Below, piece after piece: positions 2,355 to 26,029 of a DNA stretch of 64,000 nucleotides. The position numbers and the translations under genes are program-made. The stretch covers positions 3,104,501-3,168,500 of the forward strand of contig NZ_CANMXB010000001.1 in the NCBI RefSeq assembly GCF_947501785.1. The letters run 5' to 3'. Numbering within the stretch: position 1 is the stretch's first letter; each line of letters opens with the position of its first letter. The DNA is from an uncultured Litoreibacter sp. (lineage in GTDB: Bacteria > Pseudomonadota > Alphaproteobacteria > Rhodobacterales > Rhodobacteraceae). The notes beneath the pieces are model-generated. The model did not search any database, was not told where the DNA came from, and saw nothing but the letters and a program-made list of their open reading frames with translations.

Positions 2355-3743
2355 ATGGCCAATGACTACGTTGTAAAAGACATCAACCTTGCGGAATTTG
2401 GCCGCAAGGAGCTGGATATCGCTGAAACCGAAATGCCGGGGCTGATGTCTCTGCGCGAGGAATATGGCGAGAGCAAGCCTTTGACGGGCGCCCGCATCGT
2501 GGGTTCGCTGCACATGACCATCCAGACGGCCGTGCTGATTGAGACGCTTGTTGAGCTGGGTGCCGATGTGCGCTGGGCGTCGTGCAACATCTTCTCCACC
2601 CAAGATCACGCGGCTGCGGCGATTGCGGCGGGCGGCACGCCTGTGTTTGCGATCAAAGGCCAGTCCCTGGAAGAGCATTGGGACTACCTGGACAAGTCGT
2701 TCATGTTCGAAGAGGGCCCGAACCTGATTTTGGACGATGGCGGCGACGCGACATTGTACATCCTGCTGGGTGCGCGCGCCGAAGCGGGCGAAGACGTGAT
2801 TCCCGTGCCGGGGTCAGAGGAAGAAGTGGCGATCAAGGCGCAGATCAAGAAGCGCATGGAAGCCAGCCCCGGTTGGTTCACCAAGATGCGGGACCAGATT
2901 GTTGGCGTCTCTGAGGAGACCACCACCGGCGTTCACCGCCTGTATGATCTGTTCAAGAACGGCCAGCTGCCATTCCCTGCGATCAACGTGAACGATTCGG
3001 TCACCAAATCGAAATTCGACAACAAATACGGCTGTAAGGAATCGCTGGTCGACGGCATCCGCCGTGCGACCGACACGATGATGGCCGGTAAAGTGGCTGT
3101 CGTCATGGGGTATGGCGATGTGGGCAAAGGCTCGGCAGCGTCGCTGGCGGGTGCGGGTGCACGCGTCAAAGTCACCGAAGTTGACCCGATCTGCGCGTTG
3201 CAGGCGGCGATGGACGGCTTTGAGGTTGTGCTGCTGGAAGACGTTGTCTCCACGGCTGACGTGTTCATCACCACCACCGGCAACAAGGACGTGATCCGCA
3301 TCGAGCATATGCGCGAGATGAAGGACATGGCGATTGTGGGCAACATTGGCCACTTCGACAACGAGATCCAGGTTGCCGCGCTGAAGAACCACAAATGGAC
3401 CAACATCAAAGAGCAGGTGGACATGATCGAGATGCCGAACGGGCACCGTCTGATCCTGCTGTCCGAGGGCCGTTTGCTGAACCTTGGCAACGCCACGGGC
3501 CACCCCTCGTTTGTGATGTCGGCATCGTTCACCAACCAGGTTCTGGCGCAGATCGAGCTGTGGACCAACGGCGAGGCCTACAAGAACGAGGTCTACATCC
3601 TGCCAAAGCATCTGGACGAGAAAGTGGCGCGTTTGCACCTGGCCCGCATCGGCGTGAAGCTGTCGAAGCTGGACAAAGAGCAGGCGGACTATATTGGCGT
3701 GGCGCAAGACGGCCCGTTCAAGCCAGAGCATTACCGCTACTAA
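2355..3743 (+). CDS. ahcY: Adenosylhomocysteinase
   Basis: A 462-residue cytosolic enzyme that hydrolyses S-adenosylhomocysteine to adenosine and homocysteine, clearing the product of methylation reactions. Visible family marks are the NAD-binding loop [10 protein letters not shown], the substrate-domain stretch [16 protein letters not shown], the histidines in HFDNE, and the conserved C-terminal KPEHYRY. Length matches bacterial AhcY. AGGAG precedes the ATG by 9 bases. I looked for SAH or SAM/SAH riboswitch signatures in the 65-base leader and saw none. The exported protein gene at 3754 follows closely. Confidence 0.97.
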
Positions 3744-3753
3744 CGGCGTGGGC

Positions 3754-4224
3754 GTGAAGCGTCTCACTTCATTCATCATTGTGTCGGGGCTGCTTGCGGC
3801 CCCGGCATTCGCTGCCCCGAAAATCACGGAGCAGACCAAGACCTACCCCGTCAGCGCGACCACCGCGACCGGCCTGAAGGCGGAGATGGAGCGGCGCGGG
3901 CCGAAAGGCTTCTGGGCCTATACCAGCTGGAACATCCGCTGGACCGCCGGATGCGCGGTCCGTGTGAAAGTGGTCTACACGCTGCCCAAACACAAAAACC
4001 CGTCCGCCATGAGCCCCGCCGTGCGCAAGGCGTTCGATGCGATGTTGGCCGCCCTTGTGGACCACGAGAAGCAACATGGCGCCAACGGCATCAACGCCGC
4101 GCGCGAGATTGACCGCGCGGGTTGCAATGGCGGGCAGCGCATCATCCGCAAATACAACAAGGCGGACCGCGATCTTGACCGGCGCACCAACCATGGGGCC
4201 AAGACCGGCGTGATTCTGCGGTGA
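3754..4224 (+). CDS. Exported DUF922-type Zn protease-like protein
   Basis: Starts at a GTG (3754; 3748 is an alternative) 10 bases after the ahcY stop, without a clear ribosome site. A signal peptide (VKRLTSFIIVSGLLAAPAFA) suggests export to the periplasm. The body has a DUF922-like pattern and an HEKQH sequence, matching the HExxH zinc-protease motif, within LVDHEKQHGANGI. Peptidase activity is inferred from the motif and is not established for this family in general. The stop overlaps the start of the extensin-like gene by 4 bases, so the two exported proteins are probably made together and may both act on the cell envelope. Confidence 0.75.
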   Translation: MKRLTSFIIVSGLLAAPAFAAPKITEQTKTYPVSATTATGLKAEMERRGPKGFWAYTSWNIRWTAGCAVRVKVVYTLPKHKNPSAMSPAVRKAFDAMLAALVDHEKQHGANGINAAREIDRAGCNGGQRIIRKYNKADRDLDRRTNHGAKTGVILR

Positions 4225-4928
4225 GGGCGTTTCTGCGACTGGCGGTCGCGGTCGCGGGGCTTTGCCTTATCGGGGGGCTGGGCTTCCTGGCCCTGACCCA
4301 CCCCAGCACCCCGGTACCGCGCGAATGGAACCCAACCAAGCGCCTTTACCTGTCCGACCCTGTGACCTTGATGACGCCGTGGAAGCTGGACGCGGCCACC
4401 TCGGAGGCCGCGCTTTGCAAGGAGGTACTGGCCGAGGGGCGGGTGACGTTTCGCGACATGGCTGACCGGGAGATCTCGGAACTGTGTCACATCCGCGGAC
4501 GTGTGACGTTGGAGGCCGTGGGGGCCGCGCGCTTGAAACCGGTGGAGACAACCTGCGCTGTGGCCCTGCGCACCGCCATGTGGGAACGCCACGGGTTGCA
4601 ACCGGCGGCACAAGCACATCTGGGCACGACCATCACCGGGATCGGGCATTTCTCCAGCTACAACTGCCGCCAAATCCGCAGCACGGGCGGCACTGGCGGC
4701 AGAATGAGCCTGCATGCCACGGCGGAGGCCATTGACGTGTTTGGCTTTACGCTGGCGGATGGCCGCCAACTGGTGATGAAGCGCGACTGGGACCGGGAAA
4801 ACGCGTTTTTCAAAGCGGCGCGGGACAGCGCATGTACCTGGTTCAAGACAACTTTGGGCCCCGATTACAACGCGCTCCATGCCGACCATTTTCATCTGCA
4901 GTCGCGCGGTTGGGGCACCTGCCGGTAA
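4221..4928 (+). CDS. Extensin-like family exported protein
   Basis: A 235-residue protein starting at a GTG that overlaps the preceding stop (GTGA). Residues 5-25 form a membrane or signal segment. The C-terminal half has the extensin-like domain of proteobacteria: SLHATAEAIDVFGF carries a His and an Asp, and NALHADHFHLQ carries the second His set. This layout resembles the metal site of D,D-/L,D-peptidases that act on peptidoglycan. Several paired cysteines (for example CRQ, CTW and the C-terminal GTCR) suggest disulphides in the periplasm. A cell-wall role is likely but inferred. Confidence 0.8.
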   Translation: MRAFLRLAVAVAGLCLIGGLGFLALTHPSTPVPREWNPTKRLYLSDPVTLMTPWKLDAATSEAALCKEVLAEGRVTFRDMADREISELCHIRGRVTLEAVGAARLKPVETTCAVALRTAMWERHGLQPAAQAHLGTTITGIGHFSSYNCRQIRSTGGTGGRMSLHATAEAIDVFGFTLADGRQLVMKRDWDRENAFFKAARDSACTWFKTTLGPDYNALHADHFHLQSRGWGTCR

Positions 4929-5073
4929 CCTGCCACCTTTTACGGGGAAATCGCGGCGAATTTTTCCTTTGTTTTGGCTTTCTTACCCTTTACCGTCTGG
5001 CCCAAGGCCAAACTGACAGGCCGAATGGCTCCCGATCTTGGGGGCGGGACAACACTTGGTGGGAGATGCTCCA

Positions 5074-5415
5074 ATGGGCAAGAGAGACGACCTGATCGCG
5101 CAATATGCGGACGACCTGAAGAACAAATGTGGCATGACGCCAGACATGGACCTGTTGACGAAAGTCACCATCGGTTGCGGTCCGGCGATTTACAACGCGG
5201 ACGCGTCCACTGTCGCGGGCAGCCAGGAGGAAGAGCTGGAAACCGTGAAAAACAACTTCCTGATCAAGAAGCTGGGCCTGTCTGACAGCCCCGCATTGAT
5301 GGACGCGATCAACGCGGTTCTAACCACATACGGCCAATCCGAGCGCAACAAATACCGCGCGGTTGTCTATTACATGCTGACCAAGCATTTCGGCAAAGAG
5401 TCCGTTTACGGCTAA
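5074..5415 (+). CDS. DUF2853 family protein
   Basis: A 113-residue, all-helical, soluble protein of the DUF2853 family, marked by an early KRDDLIAQYADDL helix and the C-terminal RNKYRAVVYYMLTKHFGKE. Function is not known. The ATG at 5074 is preferred over an in-frame start at 5038 because GGGAG lies just upstream. It stands alone, and a strong factor-independent terminator follows about 25 bases after the stop. Confidence 0.8.
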   Translation: MGKRDDLIAQYADDLKNKCGMTPDMDLLTKVTIGCGPAIYNADASTVAGSQEEELETVKNNFLIKKLGLSDSPALMDAINAVLTTYGQSERNKYRAVVYYMLTKHFGKESVYG

Positions 5416-5440
5416 GGATATCGGACAATTCGATGTCTTG

Positions 5441-5467
5441 CGCCCGCCTGCTCAGGCGGGCGTTTTT
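5441..5467 (+). terminator. Factor-independent terminator
   Basis: Perfect 9-base stem CGCCCGCCT / AGGCGGGCG with a 4-base loop, followed by five T residues on the + strand. It lies 26 bases after the DUF2853 stop codon. Confidence 0.9.
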
Positions 5468-5737
5468 CATTGTCGGTCGAGTTTGAATAGAATTGCGCGG
5501 GCAATTCCTTTGCCAGCAGGCGGCGCGCACGGTAGGGTTTCTCAAATCCTGCCAGTACGGCCGGACCCGATATTTCTATGACTGACACGTGTGGTGCGAA
5601 ACCGAAGACGCGTGGGGTGGAAAGGGGTTCAGCCGGGGGGCTGGGCCCCTTCGTTCAGTCAGACTCCCGATCCGCGCGCCGCTCTGCGAAATTGTGCGCC
5701 TTTGGCGCGCGTGATGGTTTTGCGTTCGCCACGCAGG

Positions 5738-5803
5738 CTTGGGGGCTCTGCCCCATCGTCGCTGACGCTCCTCCCCCCGGGATATTTCCCGAACATGGAA
5801 AGG
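5738..5803. repeat. GC-rich hairpin-bearing intergenic element in a gene-free stretch
   Basis: The stretch 5468-5807 has no convincing gene. Within it lies a hairpin (GGGGGCTCTGCCCC) followed by CTCCTCCCCCCGGGATATTTC just before the end of the EVE gene. A second short G/C inverted run (GGGGGCTGGGCCCC) sits near 5636. From memory, similar GGGGCTCTGCCCC...CCCGGGATATTT stretches are frequent between genes in Rhodobacteraceae. That recollection is not checked here. Confidence 0.35.
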
Positions 5804-5807
5804 AAAA

Positions 5808-6221
5808 TCACACGCCACCCATGGCGCAGATGATGTCCCACTCCGCCTTGGTGACCGGCTGCACGGACAGGCGTGAGTTTTTCACCAGCACCATATCGGC
5901 GAGGCGCGGATCAGCTTTGACCTGGTCGAGATGGACCGGCGATTTGAGAGGCCCCAGCGCCTTGATGTCTACGCAGTCCCAGCGGTCATCCTCGGTTGTG
6001 CTGTCTTGATGCGCCTCGGCGATAACTTCGACCGTGCCGACAATTTCGCGGTCCTTTTGGGAGTGGTAGAAAAAGCCCTGATCGCCAAGCTTCATCTCCC
6101 GCATGAAGTTGCGCGCCTGATAGTTGCGCACGCCGTCCCATTCTTCGCCCGCCTCGCCCTTGGCGACCTGCTGGTCCCATGACCAGGTCGACGTTTCCGA
6201 TTTGAACAGCCAATAGGCCAT
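5808..6221 (-). CDS. EVE domain-containing protein
   Basis: A 137-residue single-domain protein starting MAYWLFKSETSTWSW, the usual opening of EVE (PUA-like) proteins related to human THYN1. The EVE fold binds modified bases in DNA or RNA. The core NYQARNFMREMKLGDQGFFYHS fits the family. It is the last gene of the tsaD-gpsA-EVE run, with only 2 bases between its start and the gpsA stop. TsaD modifies tRNA, so a link to modified nucleotides is possible but is only inferred from position. Confidence 0.85.
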   Translation of the reverse strand: MAYWLFKSETSTWSWDQQVAKGEAGEEWDGVRNYQARNFMREMKLGDQGFFYHSQKDREIVGTVEVIAEAHQDSTTEDDRWDCVDIKALGPLKSPVHLDQVKADPRLADMVLVKNSRLSVQPVTKAEWDIICAMGGV

Positions 6222-6223
6222 GA

Positions 6224-7168
6224 TCAGTCCTCCTGTTCCGATTTGAGCGGACGCGACAGCAGCGCGTCCAGCGCCTGGGGCATCGTGATCTGACCCGACA
6301 CGAGGCCCGCGACGACCTTTGTGACGGGCATGTCCACCCCGTGTTTGGCCGCGAGCTTCAGCGTCGCCTGCGCCGTTGCGCGGCCTTCAACGGTTTTGCC
6401 TTCGGGCGGCGTCGTGCCCGCCCCGAGCGCAAAGCCGAAACTGTAGTTGCGCGACTGCGGCGAGGTGCAGGTCAGCGCCAGGTCGCCGAAACCTGCAAGG
6501 CCCTGCAAGGTTTCGGGGGACGCCCCAAGTTTGAGCGCCAGCCGGTTGGTTTCGGCCATCCCGCGCGTCATCAACGCGGCGCGTGCGCTTTCGCCAAGCC
6601 CCGCGCCCATGCAAATGCCGCAGGCAATCGCGATAACATTTTTGAGCGCCCCGCCAAGTTCGGCCCCCGTAGGGTCGTCAGAGAGATAAAGCCGCAATGT
6701 GTCGGAAGACAGCGCCTGCTGCAGCGCCGCGCCCATCTCCGGGTCGGCGCAGGCCAGCGTCAGCGCCGTCGGCTTGCCCTGCGAGATATCGGTGGCGAAA
6801 CTGGGGCCGGTGAGGATGGCCGATGGGCAATCCAGCGCGCCGGCCAGCACATCGGTCGGACCGCGCGCGGTGTCGAGCTCGATGCCCTTGCAGCAGGCGA
6901 TCGCCGCCTTGGGGGTGCCGACCAGCCCCTCGAGATATCCTGACAGCGCCTGCATTGGTATCGCCAGCAGCAAGATGTCGTCCGGCCCGATGCGGGGGGC
7001 CGGGTCCAGTGCGATATGGTCGGGCAGCTCAACGTCCGGCAGCCGGGGGCTGCGGCGGGTGGCAATCATGGCGCCCATGTTGCGTGCGGTCAGCGTCAGG
7101 GGGCGTTCAATGGCCAAGGCCAAAGCGGTGCCAAAGGCCCCGGCACCTGCAACGATAATCCTGCTCAT
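6224..7168 (-). CDS. gpsA: Glycerol-3-phosphate dehydrogenase [NAD(P)+]
   Basis: A 314-residue cytosolic enzyme that reduces dihydroxyacetone phosphate to sn-glycerol-3-phosphate, the backbone of phospholipids. It shows the N-terminal dinucleotide loop [10 protein letters not shown], the central ILTGPSFA segment, the catalytic lysine in [14 protein letters not shown], and the late RNYSFG element. The start at 7168 (MSRIIVAG) has AAGGGG upstream and overlaps the tsaD stop by 4 bases. A much longer upstream open frame is a read-through of tsaD sequence and was not used. Confidence 0.95.
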
Positions 7169-18591: not shown

Positions 18592-19050
18592 ATGCAACAG
18601 AAAGCCAGCTCAAGAATGAGCCTCGGAACCATTCAGATTGAGAACAGCCTTTCGGATCACGATGTCGACTTTCAGTGTGTTCCCGCGAGCGAGAGCGAAC
18701 GCCTTAGGAAACAGTGGTTAAACTGCTATGCAGCGAGAGTGAAAAAAGAGACTGGTGCTTGGATTCACAATCGCTTTCGGTGGCATGGCTTTAGCTATGG
18801 ACTTCAAGCCGCTGTTGCAGGGTTGGATGCGACTATTGCCTATCAAGCCTTATGGCCGGCGCCCTATTTTGTTTTCGAAGAGGAGAACACTTGGGCGTAT
18901 GCTTGCACCTCTGACAGGTACCCCGACCTTACTTCTCTGCAAGCCGACATATATGTTGCGCACCATAACATGAACTGGACGATGGTCTTTACGCATGAAC
19001 AACCAGAAATCGGACCGTATCTTGCCATGAAATCAAAGAATGTTAGCTGA
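18592..19050 (+). CDS. DUF4275-like protein
   Basis: A 152-residue soluble protein. The spacing of LRKQWLNCYAARV, FRWHGFSY, a weak middle, then DIYVAHHNMNWTMVFTHE and GPYLA matches my recollection of DUF4275, an uncharacterised family. Both ATG at 18592 (preceded by GAAGAA) and at 18616 are possible starts. It stands alone between two repeat-bearing gaps, so position gives no hint of role. No catalytic motif is evident. Confidence 0.6.
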   Translation: MQQKASSRMSLGTIQIENSLSDHDVDFQCVPASESERLRKQWLNCYAARVKKETGAWIHNRFRWHGFSYGLQAAVAGLDATIAYQALWPAPYFVFEEENTWAYACTSDRYPDLTSLQADIYVAHHNMNWTMVFTHEQPEIGPYLAMKSKNVS

Positions 19051-19370: not shown

Positions 19371-19814
19371 CTATTCGCGACTCTTCGCACTCTTGGCGAG
19401 GGCTTCAAATAATTGTCGATAGTCTGATGGCGTTGCGCGCTCGATTGCGCCTGCTGAGACCTCGGATGGGCTCCAGATCACCGATTTTGCGGGATCATGA
19501 AGCATGGACCATTCTTCAAACAAACGGTTGGAAATCGGTTCTGACAAAAGTGTCTTTACATTGAGGTGCCGGTCGTCGCGCCTTATTCGTGTAAGGGTTG
19601 CCCGCACTTTTGCGGGAGGGCCTTCGAGCAGTTGGAGATAGACATCGTGTCGGCAGACAAGCGCTCCGGTCACGTCGTCTCGCATGTTGCATTTGCGCGC
19701 ATCTAGAAGGATGCCGCTGAGTGTTGGGTTGTCATATCCGAATGGCTGAGAGGCGTAGATGATCTGTATAAGGTCTGTGATGAGCGTCACTCCCGGTAAG
19801 GCCAAAAGATGCAA
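19371..19814 (-). CDS. BLUF-domain blue-light sensor
   Basis: A short BLUF protein (FAD-binding photoreceptor) with no attached output domain. Key residues are visible: the photoactive Tyr in IIYAS, the Asn in ARKCNMRDDVTG, the Gln in VYLQLLEGP, and the Trp near the end of the domain in WSMLHD. After the domain comes a C-terminal tail of about 40 residues. Blue light rearranges the hydrogen bonds round the flavin, and stand-alone forms act by touching a partner protein. The start is uncertain: the frame opens at a TTG (19814) and a GTG at 19790 gives a more typical N-terminus. The partner is not obvious; the B12 protein at 12847 is one candidate. Confidence 0.85.
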   Translation of the reverse strand: MHLLALPGVTLITDLIQIIYASQPFGYDNPTLSGILLDARKCNMRDDVTGALVCRHDVYLQLLEGPPAKVRATLTRIRRDDRHLNVKTLLSEPISNRLFEEWSMLHDPAKSVIWSPSEVSAGAIERATPSDYRQLFEALAKSAKSRE

Positions 19815-20129: not shown

Positions 20130-20441
20130 ATGTCCTCGCGCACGACCACGTCACATGTGACGTTCCTGCATCCGTTCGTGATGGGCGGGTATCCGGACGA
20201 GCTTCCGGCAGGGACCTATGAGGTCACCGTCGAAGACGAAATCCTGCAAAGCCTCAGTTTTTCTGCCTACCGCAGAACCGCCACGCACCTCTTGATCAGG
20301 AGGACGAAAGGGATCGCGCGTACAGAGATGCGTCCCATTGATCACCGCGACTTAGAGTTGGCCCTGGCACAAGACCAGGCATGTTCAAAAAATCCGAAAA
20401 ACAGTGAGGCGGCGCTTTCTCCGCCAAAGGAACCAAAATGA
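20130..20441 (+). CDS. Small hypothetical protein, first gene of the DUF1611/racemase cluster
   Basis: About 103 residues. The N-terminal part HVTFLHPFVMGGYPDELPAG followed by TYEVTVEDEILQSLSFSAYRR looks like a compact beta domain of a kind I have seen in rhizobial hypothetical proteins. The second half is charged and probably disordered. ATG at 20130 is chosen because GGGAAGG lies 6 bases upstream; the longer frame would start at a TTG (20115). The stop overlaps the next start by 4 bases (ATGA), so it is translationally coupled. Function is unknown. Confidence 0.7.
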   Translation: MSSRTTTSHVTFLHPFVMGGYPDELPAGTYEVTVEDEILQSLSFSAYRRTATHLLIRRTKGIARTEMRPIDHRDLELALAQDQACSKNPKNSEAALSPPKEPK

Positions 20442-20788
20442 CTTTTCCAGAGTGGACGAAACCCGGCATCTACGGCGCATTGGTCGGTGCAATTGCAATC
20501 TCAATCCTCGGCTTCACATGGGGCGGTTGGACGACTGGCAGCAGTGCTGAGAAGATGGCTAAGGACTTTGCCAAAGATGAAGTGACACTCGCCATGGTGC
20601 CCTTGTGTCTGAAGAATGCAGCCGCAGATACAGATCGTGTCACCAAGCTGGCGACCATTCAGGCCGCCAAAGGGTTCAATCGCAGTAAGGCAGTGATGGA
20701 TGCTGGCTGGGCGGCGCTGCCCGGCACGGAAAAACCAAATCGTGATCTGGCAGAGGCTTGTGTCAAAGAATTGGAATTAGATGCTTGA
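20438..20788 (+). CDS. Small single-pass membrane protein
   Basis: A 116-residue protein with one membrane segment at about residues 10-30 (GIYGALVGAIAISILGFTWG) and a helical domain outside. Two cysteines (MVPLCLKNAA and LAEACVKEL) could form a disulphide, which would place the domain in the periplasm. I do not know the family. It overlaps the gene before by 4 bases and the gene after by 8 bases, so all three small genes form a tight operon. Confidence 0.7.
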   Translation: MTFPEWTKPGIYGALVGAIAISILGFTWGGWTTGSSAEKMAKDFAKDEVTLAMVPLCLKNAAADTDRVTKLATIQAAKGFNRSKAVMDAGWAALPGTEKPNRDLAEACVKELELDA

Positions 20789-21623
20789 TCGGTACGCAAT
20801 ATCACCGCGTCACCGAACCAAGCAGGTAAGCGCGGCATTGTCTCCGCTGAGTTTGCTTAGGGCTATGATGCTATTTACAGCTATGGCAATTGCCATCCTG
20901 CAGATATCGCTGCCCGTTTCAGCGCAGTCAGTGCCTGTCGCGATGCCGGAAAATGCCCATGCCAAGAGCTATGGTGATGGTTGGGAATGCGACATCGGAT
21001 TCCGCAACGATGATGAGACGTGCCTGCCAATTGTTGTTCCGCAGAACGCCTATCAAACCAACCGAATTTATGGCGCCGGGTGGGAGTGCATGCACGGCTT
21101 CAAGAGCGACGGGAATACTGCCTGCGCCGAAGTCATCGTTCCCGAAGGCGGCTACCTTGATCCATCAGGACAACGTTGGCTTTGCCTGCGCGGCTTTCAA
21201 AAGGTTGGTAAGGGATGCCTCGAAATTGTTTTGCCGAAGAATGCTTACTTGGCGAAAGGACTCTATGGGTCCGAATGGGCGTGCAAACGGGGCTACGAAG
21301 CCATTGGCGAAGGATGCTCAGCGATAGTCGTCCCCGAAAATGCCTATCTTAACGTCTCCAAATATGGCCAGCCTTGGTCCTGTGAACGTGGTTTTATTGA
21401 AGAAGCACGCCAATGTGTTGCGGTTGCCGTTCCAGTGAATGCCTATTTCGATGACGCGCCATATGGCGATGGTTGGAAGTGTGACCGAGGCTACGCTGCC
21501 AAAGATGGCCGTTGCGAAGCGATTGACCTGCCGGAAAATGCGCATCTCGACAGAACAGGTAATCGTTGGGAGTGCCATAGGAATTACCAGAAATATAAGA
21601 AGAGCTGTGTCCTCAGTAACTGA
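20781..21623 (+). CDS. Exported protein with seven W-x-C...C repeats
   Basis: A 280-residue protein with a signal-like hydrophobic stretch at about 29-48 (MMLFTAMAIAILQISLPVSA). The rest is seven tandem repeats of about 31-34 residues with the pattern P-x-N-A-Y/H, then G-x-x-W-x-C-x-x-G-F/Y, then C after 6-8 residues. Each repeat has exactly two cysteines, 14 in all, so one disulphide per repeat is likely and implies a periplasmic or secreted location. The start may be internal, since 28 residues precede the hydrophobic part. I cannot name the family. The repeats suggest a binding or scaffold protein rather than an enzyme. Confidence 0.75.
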   Translation: MLDRYAISPRHRTKQVSAALSPLSLLRAMMLFTAMAIAILQISLPVSAQSVPVAMPENAHAKSYGDGWECDIGFRNDDETCLPIVVPQNAYQTNRIYGAGWECMHGFKSDGNTACAEVIVPEGGYLDPSGQRWLCLRGFQKVGKGCLEIVLPKNAYLAKGLYGSEWACKRGYEAIGEGCSAIVVPENAYLNVSKYGQPWSCERGFIEEARQCVAVAVPVNAYFDDAPYGDGWKCDRGYAAKDGRCEAIDLPENAHLDRTGNRWECHRNYQKYKKSCVLSN

Positions 21624-21712
21624 TTGGACCGAATGCCGACTGCAAAGCCGAGCTTACGGATACCTGCACTCGCGGCGCTTTGTCTGGGACATATCAACCA
21701 TAAGGATCGAAC

Positions 21713-22903
21713 ATGGAAACCAAATTTGAGGCAATCAATGCTCTTCAAAATAATGCTGTCAGATCCAAGAAGCCGACGTCGGTCCAACACAAGACACACG
21801 GCGACGCTATTGAAGGTCACACGCCAACAGCAATCGTTTATTGCCAAGGTAACTTTGCGAAAATTGACGGTAAGACAGCGAACGGATTGGTTCGACATTC
21901 GCAAGCCTACCGGATCGTTTCTGTCATCGACAGTTCGCATGATGGAAAAAACAGCGGTCTTGTCCTAGACAATATCGCCAATCAAATCCCTATCTTTGGC
22001 AACCTGACAAATGCTGTGGCCAACGAACCGACCATTCCAGACGTGTTTATCTATGGAATGGCACCCTCCAGCGGGAAATTGTCACCCAAAGACCGGGGCG
22101 TTGTTTTGGATGCGATTTCCCTCGGTATGAATATTGTCAGCGGCTTGCACGAATACCTAAGTGACGATCCTGAGATCGCCGCATTTGCCCAGTCAAAAGC
22201 GGTCACAATTCGCGACATTCGCAAACCAAAAGCCAGCAAGGATATGCGCCTGTTTGACGGCAGCATTGCGGGTGTCACAGCTCTGCGCGTTGCTGTTCTG
22301 GGCACCGATTGCGCAATCGGCAAACGGACCACAGCGACAATTCTGGCGCGTGCGCTCAATGCCAGAGGCATAAAGACCGTGCTTGTCGGGACCGGCCAAA
22401 CCGGCCTCATGCAAGGCGCGAAATACGGCGTAGCAATGGATGCGGTCCCGCCACAGTTCTGTTGTGGAGAGCTTGAGGGCGCAATCGTCGCAGCATCCGA
22501 AGCAGAAGCACCAGATGTCATCCTTATTGAAGGTCAGGGCGCGCTCAGCCATCCGGCCTTTTGTACCTCCGCCTTTATCTTGCGGGGCAGTCAACCGGAT
22601 GCCGTTATCCTTCAACATGCCCCAAAACGCGTGCATCGTTGCGATTTTCCAAACATGAAAATGCCCGATCCTGCGGATGAAATTGCGCTGATCGAGGCAT
22701 TCGCAGACACAAAAGTTATTGGTGTTACGATCAACCATGAAGGGATGACCGAAGCGGAAATAACATCATCCATCACGGCTCACTCTGATCGGTTAGGCGT
22801 GCCTGTGACCGATGCTTTGACGCGGCCCATCTCTCATCTGCTGAACATTCTGGTGTCGGCATATCCGGGTTTGCGGCAGGGATCGACCTTGGCGGTGATA
22901 TGA
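21713..22903 (+). CDS. DUF1611 (DgcN-type) P-loop enzyme
   Basis: A 396-residue protein. The N-terminal part (to about 185) is a Rossmann-like domain with IYGMAPSSGKL, and the C-terminal part carries a P-loop-like GTDCAIGKRTTA at residues 197-208, then LVGTGQTGLM and VILIEGQGALSHPAF. This is the DUF1611 family. Its member DgcN has been described as an N-acyltransferase that works with a dipeptide epimerase in D-glutamate metabolism. Here the partner is instead an alanine-racemase-fold enzyme overlapping by 4 bases. AAGGA lies 7 bases before the ATG. A role on an amino acid or small peptide is inferred. Confidence 0.8.
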   Translation: METKFEAINALQNNAVRSKKPTSVQHKTHGDAIEGHTPTAIVYCQGNFAKIDGKTANGLVRHSQAYRIVSVIDSSHDGKNSGLVLDNIANQIPIFGNLTNAVANEPTIPDVFIYGMAPSSGKLSPKDRGVVLDAISLGMNIVSGLHEYLSDDPEIAAFAQSKAVTIRDIRKPKASKDMRLFDGSIAGVTALRVAVLGTDCAIGKRTTATILARALNARGIKTVLVGTGQTGLMQGAKYGVAMDAVPPQFCCGELEGAIVAASEAEAPDVILIEGQGALSHPAFCTSAFILRGSQPDAVILQHAPKRVHRCDFPNMKMPDPADEIALIEAFADTKVIGVTINHEGMTEAEITSSITAHSDRLGVPVTDALTRPISHLLNILVSAYPGLRQGSTLAVI

Positions 22904-24021
22904 CAACGCCGCGCGTCGAAGTTGATCTGAGCAAAATTCGTCATAACGTGGAGTGTTTGGTGAGACGGCTTTCGCTGCGCGGGATCAGTGTGACTGGCGT
23001 CACCAAGGCCGTACGCGGCAATCCAAGCATTGCTCGCGCAATGTTAGAAGGGGGCGCAACTGACCTTGCTGATGCGCGCGTCAGCAATGTCGAGAGATTG
23101 CGGAAAGCGGGGGCCCGTTGCGTGGTCTCATTGATCCGTACGCCGATGTTGAGCCAAGTTGATCAGGTCGTTAGGTCTTGTGACATCAGCTACAATTCCG
23201 AGGTCGAAGTTATTGAGCAGCTCGCAGTTGCCTCGTGCCGGGCAAAGACCATTCAGAAGATCGTGCTCATGGTGGAAATGGGTGACTTGCGGGAAGGTCT
23301 TATGCCGGAAGACCTAGGTGCAGTTGCGCAAAAAGTTGTTGAGATGCACGGTGTAGAACTAAAGGGTATAGCCGCAAACTTTGCTTGCCTTAGTGGGGTC
23401 AGCCCCGATGTAGCAACAATGCAAAACTTCTCAGACCTATCCACCGAGACTGAAGCTGTGTGCGGGCCATTTATGGAGATCGTATCAGGCGGCAACTCAT
23501 CGAATTTGCAATGGGCGCTTGGGCCCTGGTCAACAGGTCGCGTCAATAATCTACGCTTGGGCGAGGCCATCCTGTTGGGCAGGGACCCGATCTCTGGTGA
23601 TCAGATCGGTGGTCTATTTACAGATGCGTTTACGCTGGTGAGTGAGGTGATTGAGACGAAAGTGAAGACGGCGCATTCCCCCGTTGCTTTGGTCGACCCG
23701 ACGTCTAGACTTCCACGGTTGAGACCAATTTGCGATCCGATTATTCGCTCAATCATCTCAATCGGAAGACAAGACACCGATATTGATGGCCTGACATTCC
23801 CGCCGGGAATGACCTGCACCGGAGCGACCAGCGATCATACGGTCGTTAGAAGCACTCTGACACCGCTACGCCTCGGGAACGAGGTTAGGCTTCAGATGAA
23901 CTACAGCGCGCTGACGCGGATCATGTCCGCGCCTGATACGACCACAGTTTTCGTCGGCGACGGAAATCGCACCCGCGTCGGCTCAATCAAAAGAAGCGGC
24001 CCTTCGTTGCAGTTGGTTTAG
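22900..24021 (+). CDS. PLP-dependent amino-acid racemase (ornithine/alanine racemase fold)
   Basis: A 373-residue protein with the type III fold. VEVDLSKIRHNVECLV starts the TIM barrel and the likely pyridoxal-phosphate lysine is K36 in GVTKAVRGNP. VLMVEMGDLREGLMP is the glycine/acid pattern of the ornithine racemase/YhfX branch, and VSGGNSSNLQWAL fits the phosphate loop. Such enzymes swap L- and D-forms of an amino acid. The substrate is unknown. The ATGA overlap with the DUF1611 gene means both are made together, so the D-amino acid probably feeds, or comes from, the DUF1611 step. Confidence 0.8.
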   Translation: MTTPRVEVDLSKIRHNVECLVRRLSLRGISVTGVTKAVRGNPSIARAMLEGGATDLADARVSNVERLRKAGARCVVSLIRTPMLSQVDQVVRSCDISYNSEVEVIEQLAVASCRAKTIQKIVLMVEMGDLREGLMPEDLGAVAQKVVEMHGVELKGIAANFACLSGVSPDVATMQNFSDLSTETEAVCGPFMEIVSGGNSSNLQWALGPWSTGRVNNLRLGEAILLGRDPISGDQIGGLFTDAFTLVSEVIETKVKTAHSPVALVDPTSRLPRLRPICDPIIRSIISIGRQDTDIDGLTFPPGMTCTGATSDHTVVRSTLTPLRLGNEVRLQMNYSALTRIMSAPDTTTVFVGDGNRTRVGSIKRSGPSLQLV

Positions 24022-24071
24022 CGATACCCGTTCTCGATTTTGATCATCGACACATCATCAAGGACTCGGAC

Positions 24072-24353
24072 ATGACAGAACAATCGGAAAGCGCAGATAA
24101 AGTGCATTATATCTGCCAGACTTATGTTGAAAAGAACGAAGGCAATGGCACGCAAGCTGGCCTCAAGATTGGCAAACAACTGCAATACACGACCGAAGCA
24201 GACGCGCAAAACCGGGCAGAGCGGGAGTTTGAGCGGGACGATTGTGTCGGTGCTGATGCTTACATGGTGGTTGAGGATTCAGGATCAGGTGAAGTGAGCG
24301 CGCCGACTTTTATTGCAAGACTGGGAATAGTCCCAGAAGCTGACGACTTTTAG
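24072..24353 (+). CDS. Small hypothetical protein at the end of the racemase cluster
   Basis: A 93-residue acidic soluble protein. The part HYICQTYVEKNEG then GLKIGKQLQYTTEADAQNRAE looks like a small beta-beta-alpha domain, and GADAYMVVEDSGSGEV follows. AAGGA precedes the ATG by 8 bases, the same ribosome site style as the DUF1611 gene. Function is unknown. It is the last gene before a convergent oxygenase. Confidence 0.65.
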   Translation: MTEQSESADKVHYICQTYVEKNEGNGTQAGLKIGKQLQYTTEADAQNRAEREFERDDCVGADAYMVVEDSGSGEVSAPTFIARLGIVPEADDF

Positions 24354-24393
24354 TCTGGGCGCTTTACCGAAACACCGGACCATGCGCCCAGAC
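24353..24393. terminator. Convergent 10-base stem between the racemase cluster and the oxygenase gene
   Basis: GTCTGGGCGC (24353-24362) pairs with GCGCCCAGAC (24384-24393) over a 21-base loop. It starts at the last base of the stop of the rightward gene and covers the last codons of the leftward one. There is no T run, so it may act as a Rho-type barrier or mRNA 3' stabiliser. A second hairpin (CTGGGA/TCCCAG) lies just before it. Confidence 0.35.
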
Positions 24394-24927
24394 GGTCAAC
24401 GAATGGCGGAGCCCATGTGTGACGGGAGTTACCTGATGCAGCGCGAAGCTTGGAAAGATGCACACAGAGCCCTGCGCGCGATTGGCTGTTACGATATGCG
24501 CACTTGGCATAACCTCCAACTTACCGCCCTGATAGGCGTCGGGTTTGCTCAACTGTAGAACAAGTGTCAGCTTGCGTTGTCTGGCGAGATGTCCGTCACC
24601 GATATCAGAATGCCACGAGAAGTGACCGGCCTTGGCCGCATCATATCGAGCGACCTGCGGGCTTTCTGCGAATTCTCGTAGGTCGAAGTCAAATTGATCA
24701 CGATTGCAGTCGCGCACAAGCGTGATGAGACGGTCCATCACCCACTCCATTCCATCGAGCTTATCCATCCACACCACCTCCGCATTGCGCAGGTTGTGAT
24801 CCTTATTCCGACCGATCAGCAGCGCGTCATCGACTTGCTCCGCCTCTACTGCTGCGACAATACGTTCGCATTCCAAAACTGAAAATGAAGCAGGAATCGC
24901 ATGGACGATCGTCATTTTGACTACCAT
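24364..24927 (-). CDS. PKHD-type 2-oxoglutarate/Fe(II) oxygenase
   Basis: A 187-residue prolyl-hydroxylase-like dioxygenase. Iron ligands are H106 and D108 (FSWHSDIG) and H164 (ALHQVTPV). R174 in LRHSLTVW would hold 2-oxoglutarate. The start MVVKMTIVHAIP has no clear ribosome site, and 24915 is an alternative ATG. These enzymes hydroxylate protein or free amino-acid side chains. It is convergent with the racemase cluster, so a shared pathway is possible but not shown. Confidence 0.85.
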   Translation of the reverse strand: MVVKMTIVHAIPASFSVLECERIVAAVEAEQVDDALLIGRNKDHNLRNAEVVWMDKLDGMEWVMDRLITLVRDCNRDQFDFDLREFAESPQVARYDAAKAGHFSWHSDIGDGHLARQRKLTLVLQLSKPDAYQGGKLEVMPSAHIVTANRAQGSVCIFPSFALHQVTPVTHGLRHSLTVWAHGPVFR

Positions 24928-25269: not shown

Positions 25270-25902
25270 TCAGATTTCAATGGCCTCCGCAATGGCTAGC
25301 GCATCTTCAAGCTCGACGCCTAGGTATCGCACCGTGCTGTCCATCTTCGTGTGGCCGAGCAAAAGTTGAACGGCGCGCAGGTTGCCGGTCTTCTTGTAGA
25401 TCTGGGTCACCTTCGTTCGCCTCATCGAATGCGTGCCGTATGCGCTCGCTTCTAAACCGATGGATATGACCCAATCGCGGACGATCCGTGCATACTGGCG
25501 TGTCGAGATATGCAGGCGCTCGTGGAAGCGGCCAGGCCATAGATATTCGGAGCCGACCATGAGCTCGTCCTCCATCCACTTCTCGACCGAGGCCCGGGTG
25601 CCTTCGGAAATTTCAAAGCGCACAGGTTTCTTCGTCTTGCTTTGCAACACCGATGCACGTTCTTTGACCTGGCCAGATGCCATGACGTCGACGACCTTCA
25701 TCTTGACCAAATCGCAACCGCGCAACTTGCTGTCGATCGCCATGTTGAAGAGAGCGAGATCGCGATGGTTTTCTGCCAATTCAAGGCGGACACGGATCGC
25801 CCAGACATGCTTGGGTTTTAGAGGTCGTTTCTGACCGACGATGCGACCTTTGTTCCATGCAGGGCGAAGTGCGCGAATGGCTGGTAGGTTTGGTGTTTCC
25901 AT
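25270..25902 (-). CDS. Short tyrosine recombinase lacking an N-terminal DNA-binding domain
   Basis: A 210-residue protein with the catalytic domain of phage integrases. The first Arg is in DSKLRGCDLVKM, the H-x-x-R box is HSMRRTKVTQ, the next box is LLGHTKMDSTVRYLG, and its Tyr is the likely nucleophile. The usual core-binding (SAM-like) N-terminal domain is missing; only about 30 residues precede the catalytic fold. GGAGG lies 8 bases before the ATG at 25902. It sits in the middle of the island, so it may mark an older insertion or cassette. Small recombinases of this kind are common on alphaproteobacterial plasmids and islands. Confidence 0.8.
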   Translation of the reverse strand: METPNLPAIRALRPAWNKGRIVGQKRPLKPKHVWAIRVRLELAENHRDLALFNMAIDSKLRGCDLVKMKVVDVMASGQVKERASVLQSKTKKPVRFEISEGTRASVEKWMEDELMVGSEYLWPGRFHERLHISTRQYARIVRDWVISIGLEASAYGTHSMRRTKVTQIYKKTGNLRAVQLLLGHTKMDSTVRYLGVELEDALAIAEAIEI

Positions 25903-26029
25903 GACTGATCCTCCGATCCGCCATGCCCTCCCGAAACGACAACCCTTTGTTGACACGGAAGAATAACATAGAACACCAATTCCCGTCTTGGCGCCTAGAT
26001 GACCAGTCAGAAAGATGAGCCGCTTTGGT

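Follow-up and report, generated by a model that had tools for sequence, protein, structure and literature searches.

The window analysed here, a 64,000-nucleotide stretch of the genome of an uncultured Litoreibacter sp. (contig NZ_CANMXB010000001.1, positions 3,104,501 to 3,168,500), carries a cluster of six genes in which one for a DUF1611 protein overlaps one for a predicted amino-acid racemase. These two genes are strictly paired, keep a recurrent gene order, recur near chaperone genes, and form a cassette that has been exchanged against an HflK-HflC cassette within a shared island scaffold. Our tentative suggestion, which we hold to be a real possibility though short of probable, is that a two-enzyme D-amino-acid module and its small envelope partners make up a cassette that mobile stress/proteostasis islands exchange, present in the window as a stripped copy. 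The cassette itself is real and recurrent and, as far as our searches show, apparently undescribed, although these covered open-licence literature only, so that the absence is weak evidence; no work tying together Roseobacter, GroEL, HflK and transglutaminase plasmid stress islands was found among those papers.

The cluster begins with g1 (20130..20441; 103 residues) and g2 (20438..20788; 116 residues), followed by genes for a Cys-repeat protein (20781..21623; 280 residues), the DUF1611 protein (21713..22903; 396 residues) and an Orr-like pyridoxal 5'-phosphate (PLP) fold-III enzyme, the predicted racemase (22900..24021; 373 residues), and ends with g6 (24072..24353; 93 residues). The junctions are, in this order, overlaps of 4 and 8 nucleotides, a gap of 89, an overlap of 4 (22900-22903, between DUF1611 and racemase, as an earlier note on this DNA had pointed out) and a gap of 50. 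The co-directional six-gene unit described in that note is real and conserved: all six open reading frames (ORFs) lie on the + strand, and their order is found again in dozens of genomes. Compared with the close relative L003, all six genes are under purifying selection, the ratio of non-synonymous to synonymous substitution (dN/dS) from g1 to g6 being 0.056, 0.109, 0.204, 0.129, 0.152 and 0.085; these values, together with protein identities of 85-98%, indicate that the small genes are real. Of the similar AAGGA ribosome sites claimed for the unit, those of AAGG(A) type can be made out clearly by eye before g1, g2, DUF1611 and g6; the site of the Cys gene is weak, and that of the racemase is inseparable owing to the overlap. 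Pfam recognises DUF1611_C (E=2.5e-70), DUF1611_N (3e-25) and Ala_racemase_N (1.3e-22), while g1, g2, the Cys-repeat protein and g6 reach no Pfam family cut-off and are likewise assigned nothing by NCBIfam or PADLOC. A role in anti-phage defence was rejected, as PADLOC returned no family for any of the six proteins at E up to 0.01.

In a survey of 394 Rhodobacteraceae genomes, racemase matches at E up to 1e-3 occurred in 55, and 42, the window's included, held orthologs (E of 1e-96 or better), the remainder being fragments or distant relatives. DUF1611 adjoins the racemase ortholog in 42/42, lying directly upstream in the window and in all 41 loci fetched (every ortholog except the window's). 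Of those 41 relatives, 36 have g2, 34 the Cys gene (one more has a relic of it), 25 g6 and 22 g1; several absences come from loci that run into the end of a contig or have little flank (L044, L063), and the divergence of g1 is large enough for it to be overlooked. A seventh small gene, g5b, sits between racemase and g6 in 29 of the 41 and is missing from the window. The Cys-repeat gene stands beside the pair in 35 of the 42 orthologs, and an intact copy is missing from the other seven. At L068 the Cys gene has an internal stop, and at L079 the racemase is split over two frames. Two further loci (L081, L082) hold a racemase of 37% identity without DUF1611.

The pairing extends beyond the family. 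Among 289 alphaproteobacterial genomes the racemase was matched in ten at E up to 1e-30, eight of them outside Rhodobacteraceae; seven of these eight are complete, each with DUF1611 directly upstream, and the last is cut at a contig end. A sample of 349 genomes of the phylum gave 11 matches at E up to 1e-60, and in the seven loci outside the family DUF1611 is present in three (L166-L168) and absent from four (L169-L172). From 149 Bacillota genomes came 35 matches; of the 12 loci read, DUF1611 was found in the starting Thalassobacillus only. The boundary lies at about 40% identity to the window's racemase: at 40% or above, DUF1611 is next door in 17/17 outside loci read, and at 30-38% it is mostly lacking. 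No Cys gene, g1 or g6 was found in these 17 outside loci, and g2 lies directly upstream of DUF1611 in two of them (L138, 54%; L144, 41%).

Because the outside loci keep DUF1611 and racemase without the Cys-repeat gene, the conserved core is two genes, not six. The earlier note had envisaged one pathway for all six and proposed a co-occurrence check across genomes, which upheld a strict DUF1611-racemase pairing and a frequent company of small genes in Rhodobacteraceae, but found none of g1, the Cys gene or g6 outside it. The separation of enzymes from small genes, which that note had itself named as telling against its proposal, is thus seen in part, since in all 17 loci read outside the family the enzymes occur without g1, the Cys gene and g6. 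Loci carrying only DUF1611 and racemase rule out an obligate six-gene pathway; taken with the seven Rhodobacteraceae loci that lack an intact Cys gene, they make a single six-gene pathway unlikely, and the data are better matched by a core of two enzymes accompanied by envelope partners.

The Cys-repeat genes fall into two classes. Class A, that of the window, was detected in 37 of the 394 genomes (at more than 440 bits in 36, and as a two-part match in G231), of which 35 hold a complete racemase ortholog, one a decayed copy (G141) and one a part of it, truncated where the contig stops (G293); within this sample, the subfamily was seen only alongside a window-type racemase in one of these states. 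Class B (324-359 bits) occupies 36 places in 32 genomes. The g6 gene occurs in 34 of the 394, 26 with a racemase ortholog, seven without and one (G141) with its remnants. By Fisher's test the association with the racemase gives P 1.2e-40 for class A and 6.6e-23 for g6, with no correction for kinship.

Two plasmids were compared to bring out the cassette. On pP97_c of Phaeobacter porticola (L148, identical in sequence to L048) GroEL and GroES are followed by a small gene, Crp/Fnr, three small genes, g1, g2 and the Cys gene, and then by DUF1611, racemase, g5b, g6, a transglutaminase-like gene, small genes and another transglutaminase-like gene. Plasmid pRIdsm_03 of Roseovarius indicus (L150) has the same scaffold without DUF1611 and racemase; here g2 is separated from a Cys gene of class B by HflK, HflC and a small gene; HflK-HflC thus precede the Cys gene, and DUF1611-racemase come after it. 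By tblastn, the two scaffolds share 91% identity in GroEL, 83% in GroES, 93% in Crp, 81% in g1, and 82% and 66% in the first and second transglutaminase-like proteins. The identity of g2 (55%) and of the Cys protein (48%) lies below this scaffold range of 66-93%, from which we conclude that these two travel with the cassette. Racemase-pair and HflK-HflC cassettes have been exchanged within one scaffold.

The HflKC form is also found in L104, L110, L111 and L112, and in L110 a racemase pair lies 3.6-5 kb from Crp, beside that form. In 20 loci (19 of the 36 class B places, and G141) we found g1/g2-family genes in 17, transglutaminase-like genes in 17, Crp in 13, GroEL in seven, HflK in six and HflC in six; island families were named by Pfam, and GroEL by its sequence and the annotation of L150. 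The pair is located on plasmids in several hosts. In the window, positions 10001-40000 gave no match to queries for GroEL, GroES, Crp, HflK, HflC, NhaA, Hsp20, desaturase or transglutaminase; the cassette copy in the window is a stripped one, without chaperones.

Chaperone and HflK genes lie near the pair more often than expected, a link that the earlier note had not noticed. GroEL is in the flank of five of 64 DUF1611-racemase loci (L048, L056, L138, L139, L152; 0.36 expected), and HflK of four (L054, L147, L153, L168; 0.43 expected). For either gene, this amounts to 9/64 loci against 0.80 expected (P 1e-7), and outside Rhodobacteraceae to 5/17 against 0.21 (P 1.6e-6), loci being treated as independent in both cases. 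The expectations derive from 26 GroEL matches in 20 genomes and eight HflK matches in five, copy numbers taken from cluster-bearing genomes; the flanks read ranged from under 1 to 10 kb, and three or more of the loci were found because plasmids form a separate collection. A Vibrio europaeus plasmid (L152) has two Hsp20 genes, GroEL and GroES near the pair, a V. parahaemolyticus plasmid has NhaA, HflC and HflK, and two other alphaproteobacterial families have GroEL (L138, L139). The HflK near the pair in L168 is 76% identical to a Ruegeria plasmid copy, as against 31% for the other HflK of L168.

The PLP enzyme matches the NCBIfam ornithine racemase model racem_Orr (NF040742) over its full length at 258.2 bits, below the cut-off of 480; its relatives score 267-426 bits. 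A plain alanine racemase, which the earlier note had named as telling against its proposal, was rejected at 30.9 bits (TIGR00492, cut-off 168); of the ornithine/alanine type given in that note, the ornithine side is the closer (258 vs 31 bits). In an alignment of 28 proteins Lys36, the PLP-binding lysine, shows no variation, and neither do D312, H313 and Y335. Three features hint at a basic amino acid as substrate. Orr kinship is one. Another is a 608-residue protein found in two related genomes (L170, L171), in which an Orr-like racemase is naturally fused to an arginase-like C-terminal domain (L170:8096-9922, where the domain scan was made; 74 bits, cut-off 228), with a DAO-family gene adjoining the L170 fusion. 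The third is a racemase relative in Shinella (L151) accompanied by genes for agmatinase, guanidino-acid decarboxylase and D-amino acid dehydrogenase.

The partner protein is a clear member of the DUF1611 superfamily (PF07755, 236.4 bits, cut-off 25; PF17396, 88.8 bits, cut-off 22.6), with a Rossmann-like N domain and a P-loop C domain. It keeps a P-loop-like G-T-D-x3-x-G-K motif, in which G197, T198, D199, G203 and K204 are invariant, and among PDB entries its relatives are 2g0t (the closest), 7xrj and 2obn; the superfamily presumably also resembles BioD, though the BioD model scores low (17 bits). An identity as DgcN was rejected, the score on NF041892 being 171.4 bits against a cut-off of 480. 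The pairing of DgcN with an epimerase, cited in the earlier note as the known arrangement, does exist elsewhere in the window's genome: another DUF1611 gene there is a true DgcN by score (553.7 bits) and is followed by an MR_MLE-fold gene and an aminotransferase (L084). No MR_MLE-fold epimerase adjoins the DUF1611 gene of the cluster, whose neighbour, as had been noticed, is a PLP-fold racemase-like enzyme with an Ala_racemase_N match and not an enolase-type epimerase.

A PLP racemase alone yields a 1:1 mixture, so that the reaction would be driven by another enzyme using up the D form. From the predicted enzymes, a D-amino-acid route is plausible: the PLP enzyme would bring an amino acid to equilibrium between its L and D forms, the likeliest substrate being basic (of the ornithine, lysine or arginine type), and the DUF1611 enzyme would modify the D form at its amino group and pull the equilibrium over, either by transferring an acyl group, as the parallel with DgcN suggests, or by some other ATP-dependent step, as its P-loop may suggest. 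The product might then protect the cell or its envelope under stress, with g2 and the Cys-repeat protein acting at the membrane or outside. A more specific version, in which the pair makes a metabolically inert N-modified D basic amino acid (e.g. N-acyl D-ornithine or D-lysine), the cell is protected by it as a solute or chemical chaperone, and islands swap this cassette against an HflK-HflC quality-control cassette, each with matched g2 and Cys proteins, is doubtful in such detail, and we regard it as speculation.

Four observations weigh against the proposal of a stress-linked D-amino-acid cassette. Some distant pairs stand beside peptide or transport genes, namely M81 peptidase (L006, L143), M19 dipeptidase (L009) and TRAP transporter genes (L007, L067). 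In 55 of the 64 loci, the window among them, neither GroEL nor HflK is in the flank read, so that the link to stress may hold for the islands and not for the module. The P values given above assume independent loci, and L048 and L056 fall in one clade. Finally, the racemase model (predicted local distance difference test, pLDDT, 85.9) resembles D-threonine aldolase and hydroxyaspartate dehydratase in fold no less than it does alanine racemase, the nearest Foldseek matches being D-threo-3-hydroxyaspartate dehydratase and D-threonine aldolase at template modelling (TM) scores of 0.68-0.74, with alanine racemases at 0.67-0.74.

The first of these points would suit a salvage route, in which the pair converts scavenged D-amino acids, of peptidoglycan or peptide origin, to usable L forms, in the way that DgcN-DgcA handles D-glutamate, and is merely useful island cargo. 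Kinship of the DUF1611 protein to DgcN (171 bits) agrees with this, as does an N-formylglutamate amidohydrolase gene near L141 and near the DgcN of the window's genome. Conversion from D to L would, however, need the racemase alone; the Rhodobacteraceae cassette has no recurrent transporter or peptidase neighbour, and the neighbours that recur outside the family are chaperone or HflKC genes (5/17 loci). We therefore consider salvage rather unlikely. The second point would be expected of ordinary accessory cargo, a metabolic pair hitchhiking on plasmids whose proximity to chaperones reflects shared islands and not shared function; the patchy distribution (42/394 genomes) and the plasmid location in several hosts are in line with it. 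Pairing with HflKC or GroEL nevertheless arose in unrelated scaffolds (L138, L139, L147, L152, L168), and g2 and the Cys protein diverge with the cassette and not with the scaffold, which makes simple hitchhiking an improbable account. Least likely, to our mind, is a PLP enzyme that is no racemase but a lyase, working as an aldolase or dehydratase with D-beta-hydroxy amino acids as substrates: this would accord with its top structural matches, the invariant Asp-His pair D312 and H313, and the lack by eye of a clear conserved counterpart to the alanine racemase Tyr, which we take to be Tyr265, yet ornithine racemase ranks far first at 258 bits against 14 for BhcC aldolase, and alanine racemases match at similar TM scores.

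Turning to the small proteins of the stress-linked cassette, the description of the Cys protein as carrying seven repeats is borne out: seven two-Cys repeats follow a hydrophobic helix at residues 22-42, predicted to be an export signal or anchor. By eye, g2 has a single N-terminal hydrophobic segment, the rest being soluble with two Cys, and g1 resembles a second, longer island protein (f6/f11 type). The AlphaFold2 model of the Cys-repeat protein has a pLDDT of 82.4 and a predicted TM score of 0.48; its best Foldseek matches are epidermal growth factor (EGF)-repeat proteins (NELL2, Pfs25), weak at TM 0.08-0.33. A search for EGF domains (PF12946 and others) found at best 13-13.7 bits against cut-offs of 26-27, and a profile search of PDB sequences returned one match (E=0.025). 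The part of a secreted binder, which the earlier note had considered for the Cys protein, is possible. A role for g2 and the Cys protein at the membrane or outside, like the chemistry and the benefit under stress, is a suggestion on our part.

Relatives of the Cys-repeat protein, class B-like and of 40-46% identity, occur on Rhizobium, Ensifer, Sinorhizobium and Methylocystis plasmids; the annotated plasmid locus read with such a relative, L149, has by annotation none of the Rhodobacteraceae island genes. In three Vibrio plasmids (L146, L147, L152) the racemase is followed by a gene for a GspS-beta-like pilotin lipoprotein (Pfam T2SSS_2 in L147), an envelope partner of another kind. In two other proteobacteria the pair is immediately followed by sensor-kinase-like ORFs that look alike by eye (L166:4237-5811, L167:6921-8051). 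In L064 a LanM-type lanthipeptide synthetase gene (DUF4135 + LANC_like; 3529-6375, + strand) lies beside the pair, which is on the opposite strand, and a possible precursor ORF (2316-2804, + strand) lies near it, in this locus only. A cluster for a ribosomally synthesised and post-translationally modified peptide (lanthipeptide) with the Cys protein as substrate was rejected, since the LanM-type gene occurs in L064 alone and there are pairs that have no Cys gene.

Around the unit in the window lie a gene for a BLUF blue-light sensor (19371..19814, - strand) and one for a 2-oxoglutarate (2OG)-Fe(II) oxygenase (24364..24927, - strand), both named by Pfam, and a possible mobility gene for a tyrosine recombinase (25270..25956, - strand; Pfam Phage_integrase); upstream, a DUF4275 protein is encoded at 18592-19050. 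The BLUF and oxygenase genes flank the cluster, in varied order, in the window, L003, L049, L051, L061 and L062, and a tyrosine recombinase is near it in five of these six, the exception being L049. A tree of 46 concatenated proteins groups the window with L003 (support 1.00) and then L043 (0.95); L053, from a genome of the window's own genus, sits in another clade, and loci with island genes occupy two clades. Taken by itself, this topology is consistent with repeated transfer.

These findings connect the mobile stress islands of marine bacteria with an uncharacterised branch of DUF1611 proteins and Orr-like racemases, and show the racemase pair exchanged against HflK-HflC within one scaffold; the two enzymes and their product are open to direct assay. 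If that product were protective, transferable stress tolerance would include D-amino-acid chemistry alongside chaperones and proteases.

Among described systems, DgcN-DgcA, which converts D-glutamate to the usable L form, shares with the cluster a DUF1611 fold and an overlapping gene for a partner that changes stereochemistry. The cluster differs in its low DgcN score and in a PLP fold-III partner where DgcA is of the MR_MLE type, and the true DgcN-epimerase locus lies elsewhere in the same genome; DgcN is described by NCBIfam as an N-acetyltransferase. Orr resembles the window's racemase along its full length, PLP lysine included, although the score stays below the cut-off and Bacillota relatives lack an adjoining DUF1611 in 11/12 loci. 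EGF-type repeat proteins are weakly similar in fold to the Cys-repeat model, which differs in having one disulfide pair per repeat. As for the islands, no dna-hsp20-clpG core is annotated around L148, L150 or L153, and L152 has its two Hsp20 genes and no annotated clpG, the plasmid gene tables being incomplete in both cases and no ClpG model having been run. That core belongs to the transmissible locus of stress tolerance (tLST), which, as far as the available part of its description goes (PMC8290217), is likewise a mobile island with proteostasis, envelope and ion-antiport genes and xenologous copies of housekeeping genes, and for which racemase, GroEL and HflK are not named in that part; the islands described here carry GroEL/GroES, Crp/Fnr, transglutaminase-like genes and the exchangeable cassette.

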